Part shown: positions 21,021 to 26,208 of the stretch, one piece after another
How positions within the stretch are numbered: position 1 is the first letter of the stretch
Layout: every line of letters starts with the position of its first letter
Assembly: GCA_013203185.1 (NCBI GenBank)
Contig: JABMOS010000113.1
Coordinates: 1-64,000, forward strand
DNA from: Fidelibacterota bacterium
GTDB taxonomy: Bacteria > Fidelibacterota > UBA8477 > JABMPR01
Length of the DNA stretch: 64,000 nt
Direction: 5' to 3'
Notes under the pieces: generated by a model
What the model was told of the DNA's origin: nothing
The model's input: only the letters and a program-made list of their open reading frames with translations
Databases searched by the model: none
Program-made: the position numbers and the translations under genes

Positions 21021-21305
21021 CACCGCACAAGACCATTTGATGCTATAAAACACACCCAAACTAGAACATGAAAGTATTTTAATCTTCAAGTAAAATCCAT
21101 ATTCAGTAACTATAGACCCTAAAGTGTTGATTATTTAGGAATAATGTGAGGAGAATGAAGGTAGCCCTGTAGCCTGCTCATATTTTTAGTAAAGACTACC
21201 CTGTTGTTTATAGAACACTCCTCTCTATATTTCATTGTTCAAAAGTTTTTTAGTAACCTGGGACAATGCTTTACAAAGGCACATATTGTGTCATGAGCAT
21301 AGCGG

Positions 21306-21321
21306 TGGCATTCTTTTTGCG
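21306..21321 (+). promoter_or_regulatory. sigma-54 (-24/-12) promoter
   Basis: TGGCAT-TCTTT-TTGCG: matches TGGCAC-N5-TTGCW core with exact GG-N10-GC spacing; 255 nt upstream of the 6-heme cytochrome ATG. Confidence 0.75.
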
Positions 21322-21378
21322 ACATTTTATGCGTTCCATTTTAGTCCTGAATTACAGTTTTACAGATTTTTCTCAAGA

Positions 21379-21447
21379 ACCAAATAATCTACCCGCCTCG
21401 AGATTTGCTTGAATGGCTTACAATCAAGCGATTTGGTGGGTTTTTTT
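21379..21447 (+). promoter_or_regulatory. attenuator-like mutually exclusive hairpins with T-tract in cytochrome leader
   Basis: ACCCGCC (21391-21397) pairs GGTGGGT (21435-21441) with inner GCTTGA/TCAAGC, followed by T7; alternative ACCAAAT (21379-21385) / ATTTGGT (21431-21437) shares the same GGT. Confidence 0.45.
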
Positions 21448-21490
21448 AGAATAAATAGTTGCTGATGGTGACTATTTTTATCATCAAGAG

Positions 21491-21508
21491 ATTCCAATAT
21501 CTTGGAAT
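21491..21508 (+). promoter_or_regulatory. second leader hairpin
   Basis: ATTCCAA-tatc-TTGGAAT with partly complementary flanks TATCATCAA / TTGATA. Confidence 0.45.
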
Positions 21509-21576
21509 GTTTTGATAGGATTTCTCAAACGTAGGAAAAATTGAAAATAACAATAGAAGTTAACATGGAGGAAAAA

Positions 21577-22644
21577 ATGAGTAAAAGACTAAACTTGTTT
21601 GCCATTTTGGTTTTAGCCCTGATGGTGATGTTTACAGTTAGTTGTGAAGGACCTGCTGGCGAAATGGGTCTTACTGGTGCTGATGGTGCTGTTGGTGCTG
21701 ATGGTGCCGATGCCCAGGTAACTTGTCTATCATGTCACGATAGCGATACAATGCTTGATAACCAGCTAGAATTAGCTCGTTCACAGCATGGTCTTGGTGA
21801 TGTTGCAGTAGGTTATGCCGGTGGACGTGCTGGATGTGCCCAGTGTCATTCACATGAAGGATTTGTCGAGTGGGCCACCACAGGTACAATTGGTGATGCA
21901 AACTATACAACACCTTCACCATGGCAATGTTCAACCTGTCACGGGTTGCACAGAACCTTTACAGAAGAATTTGATGAAGCTACAGATTACGCATTACGCG
22001 TAAATGATCCAGTTGTAGCCATGTTTGATGAAACTGTTACTCTGGACATTGATCCTAGCAGTAACCTTTGTGTCAACTGTCACCAATCACGTCGTGGTTA
22101 TGACAGTATGGTAGACGAGGGTGGCCTTACTGGTACACTCACTAGCTCACATGCTGGTCCCCATCATGGTCCACAAGCCAACCTGCTTTCTGGTAACAAT
22201 GGCTCCATGGCTGGCGAACCTTTCGCCCCCCATTTGGGAGCTGGTTGTGTTGGATGTCATATGACTGAAGCTACTGGTGATGAAACCAATATCAATGGCG
22301 GACATACTTTCTGGGCAGTTGCTGAGAAATGTAATGACTGTCATACTGGTCCAGACGTTGTTTTCGATGCCAGCCGTGATTCTGAATTCGAACACGAAGG
22401 CTATTACGACTACAAAGGTTTCCAGACTGAGATAGCTGACAAGCTGCACGAGCTGGGTGGTTTACTGGTTACAGAAGGTATTCTGGACAGCACCCATTCA
22501 ACAGTTCCAGGAACGTATGATATTGATACATACAAAGCCTGGTGGAACTACATCTTTATTGCAGAAGATCGCAGCCACGGTGTTCACAATCCATATTGGA
22601 CTGAATCACTATTGGATGAGGGTATTACTGCTCTTACACCATAA
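21577..22644 (+). CDS. 6-heme c-type cytochrome lipoprotein with N-terminal collagen-like Gly-X-Y segment
   Basis: ATG 21577 with GGAGGAAAAA RBS; lipobox-like 'MFTVSC'; seven Gly-X-Y triplets 'GPAGEMGLTGADGAVGADGAD'; six CXXCH (CLSCH, CAQCH, CSTCH, CVNCH, CVGCH, CNDCH). Confidence 0.85.
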   Translation: MSKRLNLFAILVLALMVMFTVSCEGPAGEMGLTGADGAVGADGADAQVTCLSCHDSDTMLDNQLELARSQHGLGDVAVGYAGGRAGCAQCHSHEGFVEWATTGTIGDANYTTPSPWQCSTCHGLHRTFTEEFDEATDYALRVNDPVVAMFDETVTLDIDPSSNLCVNCHQSRRGYDSMVDEGGLTGTLTSSHAGPHHGPQANLLSGNNGSMAGEPFAPHLGAGCVGCHMTEATGDETNINGGHTFWAVAEKCNDCHTGPDVVFDASRDSEFEHEGYYDYKGFQTEIADKLHELGGLLVTEGILDSTHSTVPGTYDIDTYKAWWNYIFIAEDRSHGVHNPYWTESLLDEGITALTP

Positions 22645-22663: not shown

Positions 22664-22692
22664 AAAAACCCCACTTCGGTGGGGTTTTTTTT
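22664..22692 (+). terminator. intrinsic terminator after 6-heme cytochrome
   Basis: AAAAACCCCAC-TTCG-GTGGGGTTTTTTTT, perfect 11-bp stem with tetraloop. Confidence 0.93.
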
Positions 22693-23068: not shown

Positions 23069-24817
23069 ATGCAGAAATTTAGACTCAATTCAAACTCTAT
23101 TATCGCCTTTTCCTTGGTGCTGGTATCCAGTTTTGTTTTTCTGGTAATAAAATTCTATCAGACCGCCCTTTCGGAAGCTACCTCCTACCATCAGCAGCTC
23201 CAGTCAGAAATGGCAAAAACAGCCACTGCCAGTATGACCAACTACTTCGAGCATCTCACCGATGACCTTCATCTGTTTTCACAGCTGGGTTTAGAGAATG
23301 TTGACGTTTTACAATACTCCAATCAGTTGGGTACTGAAGGAATCAGTTCATGGTTCACTCTTGATGATAATTTTAATATTGAGAAAATAGGAGGGAAGGC
23401 ACTTTCTCAATGGGTAGCCGAAGAACTTCGTATCCTGTCCATTAATGCGTTCGATCCTAGCCATGGACGCGGTCCCGAATCCCGAACCATTTTCTCACCT
23501 GTATACCCAGACAATTTGGATTCTGAAGACCCTCCCTACCATTTCCTGGTCATTTTTCTACCTGAGCGGACTTCACAGCCAGATTACCCCTTAAATCCCG
23601 TGGTCCGGAATATGGGATTATTAATAAGTTTTGATTGGTTAATGGAAAAATTTGTCACACCCCTAAAATTGGGTAAGGATGATTTCGCCTGGGTCATGGA
23701 TAATGGTGGTCGACTCATATATCATCCAAATCATGAAGAAATGCTCCTGCACAATATCAGGGATATTCAGGAGGATTGTGCGGAATGCCATAGTTCCTTC
23801 AAGATCCAGGAACGAATGATACTGGAGGGGTCAGGAAGGGCAAAATATATCATTGAAGGGGAGCCAGAAAAAATTATGGCCTATGAGCCCATACAATATG
23901 GTGGATTAAAGTGGGTCCTAGCTATTTCAACCTACTCTCCCTCTGTGGCCCGAGATGTTCTGAGAAACTCCATTGCCATATTTATCTTATCAGGCGTATT
24001 TCTGCTCCTCCTCATTATTACTGGTGGTTCACTTTACTATTTAAACATAAAGCGCGTGTTAGCAGATCAGGCTAAAAAGCGGATTAGCGAAGTCCAGCGT
24101 ATCCAGGAAAAGCTGGATCAGGCAACCAAACTGGCCTCCCTGGGAGAGTTGATAGATTCAGTTGCACATGAAATAAACACCCCCACTGGGATCATTTCAG
24201 CAGTAGCGGATGGGATGATTCTAAATGAAGACCTTGGTGAGGATTCCAAAGGTGAAATGCACGTCATTAAGAAGCAGGTCCATAGAATAAAGGATTACAC
24301 GAGGCGGCTACTGGGATATTCTAGGGTCATGCCTTTCAGGCCAGAGGTAAATGATATCCTGGATCTCATCTCCGAGTGCCTGTTTTTGGTTGGTCCCAGG
24401 TTGAACGCAAAAAAGGTAGTGGTTATTAACGAATTACCCGAAACCTGGCCATCCTTCACTTTTGATCGACCCAGGCTGGAGCAGGTCATCATCAATTTAC
24501 TCAACAATGCCATAGATTTTGTTGGGTCCAAGGGCCGGGTTACTCTACGTATTGAAAACAGAGATGAAGAATCCTCCCTGGGGCTGCAAACCTGGCATGT
24601 TTTATCTATCGAGGACAACGGGGCTGGAATTCCAGCAGCAGATATCCCAAACATTTTTAAACCTTTTGTGAGCAATAAGCCTGGATCACAAGGTACGGGT
24701 TTGGGCTTATCCATTTCAAAATCTATTGTTGAAAGACACAGCGGTCGCCTGGAAGTGCAGAGTTCGCCAGGTGAGGGCGCCACCTTCCTAATCTATTTAC
24801 CAGCGGATAAATCATGA
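23069..24817 (+). CDS. sensor histidine kinase with CXXCH-containing periplasmic (Cache-like) sensor domain
   Basis: Two TM segments flank ~280 aa containing 'DIQEDCAECHSSFK'; H-box 'LIDSVAHEINTPTGIIS'; N/G boxes 'NLLNNAIDFVG', 'DNGAGIPA', 'GTGLGLSIS'. Confidence 0.92.
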   Translation: MQKFRLNSNSIIAFSLVLVSSFVFLVIKFYQTALSEATSYHQQLQSEMAKTATASMTNYFEHLTDDLHLFSQLGLENVDVLQYSNQLGTEGISSWFTLDDNFNIEKIGGKALSQWVAEELRILSINAFDPSHGRGPESRTIFSPVYPDNLDSEDPPYHFLVIFLPERTSQPDYPLNPVVRNMGLLISFDWLMEKFVTPLKLGKDDFAWVMDNGGRLIYHPNHEEMLLHNIRDIQEDCAECHSSFKIQERMILEGSGRAKYIIEGEPEKIMAYEPIQYGGLKWVLAISTYSPSVARDVLRNSIAIFILSGVFLLLLIITGGSLYYLNIKRVLADQAKKRISEVQRIQEKLDQATKLASLGELIDSVAHEINTPTGIISAVADGMILNEDLGEDSKGEMHVIKKQVHRIKDYTRRLLGYSRVMPFRPEVNDILDLISECLFLVGPRLNAKKVVVINELPETWPSFTFDRPRLEQVIINLLNNAIDFVGSKGRVTLRIENRDEESSLGLQTWHVLSIEDNGAGIPAADIPNIFKPFVSNKPGSQGTGLGLSISKSIVERHSGRLEVQSSPGEGATFLIYLPADKS

Positions 24818-26208
24818 AACAAATAGGTCCACGTATTCTGATTATTGATGATGAGCAAGATTTTCTAGAAGCAACGGCCAATCTTCTCCGTCGCCTCGAT
24901 TTCGAGCCAATGACAACCAAAGATGTACACTATGCATTGGAGCTTATCGAAAGTCAGAATTTTGATCTTGTTCTATGTGATCTGCAAATGCCAGACCTGG
25001 ATGGTCTGGAGATGTTAAAGCGAATCCGCATGTATGCTAAAGATCTGCCTGTGGTCATCATCTCAGCCTATGGAACTATTGACAGGGCTGTTGCCTGTAT
25101 CAAGGCCGGAGCATATGAATTTATTGAAAAACCGTTTGAAGTGGATCATCTCAAAGTGGTTATCGACAGGGCTTTGCAATTCTCAAACCTAATAGAAGAA
25201 CGACAATCCCTCCTGCAGCAACTCAAAGACAAATACAAATTTGAAAATATTATTAGCAAAAGTGACGTGATGCTTAAGATTTTCAAATTGATTGAAACCG
25301 TTGCCCCAACTGATGTCAATATACTCATTACTGGTGAGAGCGGGACAGGGAAGGAACTGATTGCACGAAGTATACATACACGGAGCAAAAGACAGGCAAA
25401 ACCCTTTGTACCAATGAATTGCGGAGCACTCCCTGAAAATCTTTTTGAATCTGAACTTTTTGGATATGAAAAAGGCGCGTTCACAGGTGCCGATCAAACA
25501 AAAATTGGATTATTCGAATATGCTAATACAGGGACCTTTTTCCTTGATGAAGTCTGTGAGATGGCCCATTCCCTACAAACAAAGTTTTTACGCGTGCTAC
25601 AAGAAAGGGAATTGAGAAGATTGGGGGGGCATCTCCAGATACCCATAAATGTCCGTATTATTTCAGCTACTAATTGCTCACCTGATAAAATACTTGGTGA
25701 AGATCGATTGCGGGCCGATTTGTACTATCGATTGAATGTGATTCATATCCATATACCGCCTCTGCGTGAGCGAAAGGGTGACATCCGATTGCTGGTAAAT
25801 CATTTTGCCAAAAAGTCCATGGTGACAACAGGCAAAAAGAAACTCAAATTTTCAGCAGAGACACTTTCTCTTCTGGAAACATATAATTGGCCAGGGAATG
25901 TCCGTGAATTGGAAAATGTGATTGAGCGGTTGGTGGCTTTAAGTGATGATACTGTTATTCAGAGTGCCCATCTTCCAGAGCAATTCCACAGCTTGGAGCC
26001 AACGCAAGAAAATTTTGACTCCCTGTCCTTCAAACAGGCCCGCACCCGTGAAATAGATAAGGTAGAACAACGCTATCTGAAATTCCTCCTTCGCAAACAC
26101 AAAGGAAATGTGACGCGTATCGCCGAGGAAGGGGATATGACCAGACGGAACACGTATCGATTGCTACAAAAACATAACATCGATCCTGAGGATTGGCGAC
26201 TGCTATAA
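24814..26208 (+). CDS. sigma-54-dependent NtrC-family response regulator
   Basis: REC 'LVLCDLQMPDLDG'; Walker A 'GESGTGKELIA'; 'GAFTGA' sigma-54 contact loop; 'NWPGNVRELENVIERLV'; Fis-type HTH at C-terminus; overlaps kinase stop. Confidence 0.96.
   Translation: MKQIGPRILIIDDEQDFLEATANLLRRLDFEPMTTKDVHYALELIESQNFDLVLCDLQMPDLDGLEMLKRIRMYAKDLPVVIISAYGTIDRAVACIKAGAYEFIEKPFEVDHLKVVIDRALQFSNLIEERQSLLQQLKDKYKFENIISKSDVMLKIFKLIETVAPTDVNILITGESGTGKELIARSIHTRSKRQAKPFVPMNCGALPENLFESELFGYEKGAFTGADQTKIGLFEYANTGTFFLDEVCEMAHSLQTKFLRVLQERELRRLGGHLQIPINVRIISATNCSPDKILGEDRLRADLYYRLNVIHIHIPPLRERKGDIRLLVNHFAKKSMVTTGKKKLKFSAETLSLLETYNWPGNVRELENVIERLVALSDDTVIQSAHLPEQFHSLEPTQENFDSLSFKQARTREIDKVEQRYLKFLLRKHKGNVTRIAEEGDMTRRNTYRLLQKHNIDPEDWRLL

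Follow-up and report, generated by a model that had tools for sequence, protein, structure and literature searches.

Why does the message of a multiheme cytochrome of marine Candidatus Neomarinimicrobiota start with an untranslated leader of about 245 nt behind a sigma-54 promoter? The leader lies in a stretch of 64,000 nucleotides, which we call the window, and an earlier note on this DNA had described it as attenuator- or riboswitch-like. All of the strings quoted by that note were found where it had placed them, and it was right about the sigma-54 box and about the length of the leader, given a transcription start predicted near 21332. The locus is laid out as follows.

21280-21290, no strand assigned: palindrome CACATATTGTG, upstream of the sigma-54 promoter, a candidate activator site with a putative function
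21306-21320, forward strand: sigma-54 (-24/-12) promoter TGGCATTCTTTTTGC, which matches the consensus and is kept in 11 of the 12 orthologous leaders
21332-21576, forward strand: leader (5' UTR), its start predicted 12 nt past the GC of the -12 element
21567-21571, forward strand: Shine-Dalgarno sequence GGAGG, invariant among the aligned leaders
21577-22644, forward strand: secreted multiheme c-type cytochrome with a collagen-like GxDG stretch (Pfam Cytochrom_c3_2, Mtrc-MtrF_II-IV_dom and Cytochrome_C7), its start codon at 21577
22667-22692, forward strand: terminator 3' of the cytochrome gene, AACCCCACTTCGGTGGGG-T8, with the same layout as the leader hairpin
23069-26208: Cache-type histidine kinase and NtrC-type regulator, neighbours of the cytochrome

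Sigma-54 itself is encoded in the genome of the window. In the leader of species G010, the box carries TTGA in place of TTGC. The 20-nt bin that holds the palindrome (21272-21291) has an identity of 0.93-0.94 over 7 species, and three blocks further upstream of the promoter (21058-21096, 21117-21135 and 21195-21251), with identities of 0.72-0.86, are also candidate regulator-binding sites. The genome contains 14 consensus sigma-54 sites, and only the one of the cytochrome is followed within the next 300 nt by a terminator-like hairpin. The neighbouring kinase and response regulator were considered as a dedicated partner of this promoter and rejected: only 5 of the 12 species that bear the leader have a close orthologue of the regulator, so the adjacent pair may not be the dedicated activator. 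The sensor part of this kinase carries a CxxCH motif (CAECH). With a terminator of its own, the cytochrome gene probably forms a unit by itself.

Within the leader, the elements that matter for its function are these.

21367-21378, forward strand: TTTTTCTCAAG motif, 5' of the terminator and almost unchanged throughout alignment A2
21379-21385, forward strand: ACCAAAT, the 5' strand of the antiterminator proposed earlier, not conserved
21391-21441, forward strand: terminator hairpin with arms ACCCGCC (21391-21397) and GGTGGGT (21435-21441), -22.2 kcal/mol, with covariation
21441-21447, forward strand: T7 tract that abuts the stem and marks the predicted premature 3' ends, T7-T8 in 10 of the 12 orthologous leaders
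21453-21490, forward strand: post-terminator block AATAGTTGCTGAT..GACTATT..ATCATCAAGA, with 0.75-0.85 identity and no codon-phase signal
21491-21508, forward strand: second hairpin ATTCC-(8 nt)-GGAAT, ATTCCAATATCTTGGAAT, with 0.89 identity and 93% of cells paired

The segment 21391-21447 has the sequence features of an intrinsic terminator, namely a stable hairpin with a G+C-rich base that is directly followed by a U-tract, and it lies between the sigma-54 box and the start codon, a layout that is the same in 10 species. In the window, the outer arms contain one G.U pair and the inner stem is GCTTGA/TCAAGC. The 81 nt around the hairpin fold more stably than their shuffles (z of -3.4), and the hairpin is the most stable of the ten sites in the 64 kb, on both strands, at which a hairpin is followed by T6 or longer; shuffled 64-kb windows give 0.1 site as strong per window over both strands. 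A simple terminator scan missed it, as it allowed only loops of 3-8 nt. Terminators of the leader style are also found elsewhere within the window. The hairpin was also considered as the terminator of the upstream Gfo/Idh gene, which lies more than 370 nt away, and this was rejected because the leader persists where that gene has decayed to a 65-residue remnant (L063) or was not found (L067).

The conservation of this leader is that of a genus. Nucleotide and protein searches found it in 12 of 19 species, always before the orthologue of the cytochrome of the window; 7 species are without it, and some of the genomes are incomplete. The covariance model R1, which was built on seven leaders and left out the window's own sequence, recovers a single copy from each genome of these 12 species, and scores the window at 82.7 bits (E 9e-12). 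In the rest of the order and phylum (199 genomes, about 180 of them outside the genus), R1 gives only weak matches that are likely due to chance, none of them convincing, and it gives no convincing paralogous leader in the same or in other genomes. Elsewhere in the order, three loci of another family (L036, L037 and L038) have a sigma-54 box, TGGCAT(T/C)AATGTTGC, about 300 nt upstream of this cytochrome; long leaders behind sigma-54 are thus met again across the order, there without a T-run terminator. In a sister genus (L032, genome G019), a different hairpin, GTACGTCATT-GGAA-ATGGCGTGC-T5, precedes the start of the cytochrome by about 150-190 nt; it occupies the very start of the leader, after the sigma-54 box, with a 13-bp stem and a TTCTCAAG motif farther on, and it is possibly an independent leader terminator.

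The pairing of the terminator stem is kept among these orthologues. When the arms are anchored at ACCC and GGG plus the T-run, the four base pairs that adjoin the T-run are paired in 44 of 44 cells over 11 orthologues, compared with 22-25 in slid registers. A model-based alignment of 12 sequences, which is fitted to the structure, has 88% of its cells paired, and in 7 pairs both partners have changed, six of these pairs belonging to the terminator stem and one to the second hairpin; this was matched in 0 of 500 shuffles, and its slid registers are 25-54% paired. The trend is the same in the seven-sequence MAFFT alignment (92.8% paired; 7 of 500 shuffles). RNAalifold misses the terminator on the raw MAFFT alignment A2, in which T7/T8 moves the right arm by one, and the arms were re-anchored. 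Thus, the part of the earlier proposal that paired ACCCGCC with GGTGGGT ahead of seven T, and called this terminator-like, is borne out: the structure is above chance and its stem pairing is kept through covariation.

The terminator is not equal in all species. Its energies differ between orthologues, and the G012 segment is no stabler than its own shuffles (z of -0.15). The leaders of G004b and G010 have no T-run; since both species keep the leader, termination is not essential everywhere. One could then propose that the hairpin does not terminate at all and instead stabilises the 5' UTR or acts as a spacer in it, within a conserved leader that acts on mRNA stability or translation. This would suit the G010 leader, whose stem (AACTCTC/GAGAGTT) is intact despite the missing T-run, and also the fact that no part of the leader is more conserved than the post-terminator block, but in 10 species a run of T7-T8 directly abuts the stem, and the complementarity of the leader, TTTTTCTCAAG motif included, to the Shine-Dalgarno sequence does not exceed that of shuffles. 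We hold this explanation to be unlikely.

How the rest of the leader evolves is best judged against drift. Four-fold synonymous sites of the neighbouring genes retain an identity of only 0.30-0.51 between the window and its relatives, which is near saturation, while the leader 3' of the terminator is at 0.74-0.97 and the promoter with the upstream palindrome at 0.79-0.94; the stretch 21371-21430, to which the loop and the 5' strand of the proposed antiterminator belong, is at only 0.48-0.55. Judged from this comparison, the leader is under selection, and the pattern of identity and drift indicates that the terminator stem is kept by pairing and the post-terminator block by sequence. The same profile bears on the idea that promoter and terminator make a separate small RNA of about 115 nt, bounded by the start at 21332 and the U-run at 21447, with the cytochrome expressed from read-through or from a downstream start. 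Such an RNA would be compact, and the return of high identity past the terminator would fit. However, most of its body is precisely the drifting 21371-21430, unlike a typical trans-acting small RNA, and no convincing promoter was found past the terminator, where promoter-like sites do not exceed their frequency in shuffles. A separate small RNA is therefore improbable.

Several other elements of the leader were looked at. The second hairpin, which the earlier note placed closer to the ribosome-binding site, is conserved, is lengthened in the window by flanking pairs (21484-21515) and has one pair changed on both sides among the 12 sequences; it ends about 60 nt before the Shine-Dalgarno sequence, however, which it leaves uncovered. 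Two copies of TTTCTCAA lie in the leader (21367-21378 and 21522-21529), one on either side of the terminator, and are nearly invariant in the genus. Sequestration of the Shine-Dalgarno sequence by these two copies, suggested by consensus folds, was rejected, being no stronger than in shuffled leaders. An open frame past the terminator (MTIIIIK..) was rejected as a leader peptide, as it has no Shine-Dalgarno sequence in most species and no codon-phase signal.

Is the terminator then controlled by a switch within the RNA? The earlier note had proposed that ACCAAAT pairs with ATTTGGT (21431-21437) and thereby excludes the terminator. All 7 of these pairs form in the window species only; elsewhere 2-4 of 7 do (4 of 7 in the closest relative), and over ten other orthologues 30 of 70 cells are paired, which is the level of slid registers. 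An exact complementary run of 7 nt has a P of about 0.04 in shuffles, and a 7-bp run that allows G.U is found in 84% of them. The antiterminator would fold at -17.3 kcal/mol against -26.4 for the terminator, and is thus 9 kcal/mol weaker. We rejected it, with pairing at chance level in the relatives and a weaker fold. No other upstream complement to the right arm of the terminator lies at a shared place among the orthologous leaders. As ACCAAAT:ATTTGGT is unconserved and the terminator arms have no shared alternative partner, the mutually exclusive pairings are unsupported, and no mutually exclusive antiterminator structure of an alternative-fold attenuator is found here. By the earlier note's own refuting condition, a lack of covariation in homologous leaders, the outcome is split: covariation is seen for the terminator and not for the switch.

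The suggestion of a riboswitch fares no better. Such an element, responding to heme, a metal, a redox cofactor or a cyclic dinucleotide, could govern the conserved terminator, and multiheme cytochromes are targets of GEMM-Ib riboswitches in Geobacter (PMC6456294). But the leader has no Rfam match at gathering level and only chance matches at permissive thresholds, the terminator is the sole pairing in the consensus fold from the start to the T-run, the sequence from TTTTTCTCAAG to the right arm drifts, and there is one copy per genome at a single locus in a single genus. A metabolite riboswitch is thus very unlikely, and the riboswitch label of the earlier note is unsupported.

Known systems help to place this leader. 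In the GEMM-Ib leaders of Geobacter multiheme cytochromes, cGAMP is thought to stabilise the antiterminator (PMC6456294); here too a terminator lies in the leader of a multiheme cytochrome gene, but there is no GEMM or other Rfam match and no conserved aptamer, and one copy per genome compares with 17 GEMM-Ib in G. sulfurreducens. The nasF operon leader of Klebsiella oxytoca has an intrinsic terminator and is under attenuation control by NasR, an ANTAR protein (PMC3369936, PMC7496416). Our leader resembles it in having an intrinsic terminator before a metabolic gene, and differs in the type of gene and in the tandem hexaloop hairpins. An ANTAR leader has two of these, with A at position 1 and G at position 4, the second overlapping the terminator, and none were found at a conserved place in 10 leaders. 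Because the defining RNA features of both types are missing, the leader is filed under neither. Protein-dependent antitermination of the ANTAR (NasR/EutV) or LicT/BglG type, in which a leader likewise runs into an intrinsic terminator before a respiration or assimilation gene (PMC3369936, PMC3369931), is most improbable in view of the lack of hexaloops at a conserved place and of the search for CAT_RBD proteins of the LicT/BglG kind (CAT-RAT antitermination), found in 0 of 23 genomes of the order and in 4 controls. ANTAR proteins gave no match in the 23 or the 199 genomes, and the control genomes gave none either. Ribosome-mediated attenuators also place a leader terminator upstream of a metabolic gene; unlike them, this leader contains no conserved translated ORF with a ribosome-binding site, and the frame past the terminator has no codon-phase pattern.

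The explanation that we favour, with moderate confidence, is that transcription from the sigma-54 promoter is attenuated in the leader, by a device specific to this genus. Direct observations are the consensus match of the promoter, the hairpin with its T-run, their conserved position and pairing and the selection on the leader, and a course of events can be proposed. Sigma-54 polymerase would start near 21332. Once about 110 nt had been transcribed, the hairpin 21391-21441 would form in the nascent RNA, with U7 behind it, and some or most of the polymerases would stop near 21444-21447 and release an RNA of about 115 nt. Only those polymerases that pass this point and enter the post-terminator region, which is strongly conserved, would then yield the cytochrome. 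The nasF promoter is likewise sigma-54/NtrC dependent, which gives that operon two-layer control. We infer that termination at the leader hairpin occurs in vivo; that read-through is regulated we also only infer, because the search turned up neither a conserved antiterminator nor a sensor domain. ACCAAAT is not the site through which the regulator acts; a factor acting in trans is more likely, either a small RNA or a protein that binds RNA, and its target may be TTTTTCTCAAG. Alternatively, read-through is a fixed partial leak. Both protein-only antitermination and constitutive partial termination are possible. We would go further only tentatively: the TTTTTCTCAAG motif, the terminator and the post-terminator block might be the target of an undescribed trans-acting antiterminator, through which a single outer cytochrome, itself evolving rapidly, would answer both to the sigma-54 signal and to a second one, respiratory or redox in nature, an idea that we rate as rather doubtful.

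The cytochrome itself has only about 40-50% amino acid identity in most leader-bearing relatives (L062, L063, L066 and L067 among the orthologues), compared with 74-88% for the Gfo/Idh protein, 82% for the kinase and 74-98% for the flanking genes overall. Behind a promoter and a leader that stay fixed, this gene thus either evolves unusually fast or has been replaced. In G010 the cytochrome is close (68%) though its leader has diverged.

The second, post-initiation layer of control that the earlier note suspected is plausible, given that in 10 species a conserved intrinsic terminator lies at a constant position between promoter and gene, even if the switch pairing proposed for it is unsupported. 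The terminator and the post-terminator block merit experiment, and the switch pairing should be dropped. Judging from the full-text literature on Marinimicrobia that mentions riboswitches, post-initiation control appears to be undescribed for the Neomarinimicrobiota (SAR406). If the terminator works, premature ends could be sought directly in metatranscriptomes of oxygen-minimum zones. Beyond switching the cytochrome gene on, the cell probably controls it at a second gate: with a working terminator, the cytochrome would be gated twice, by enhancer-dependent initiation and then by termination, and the cytochrome so gated is far more diverged than its neighbours.
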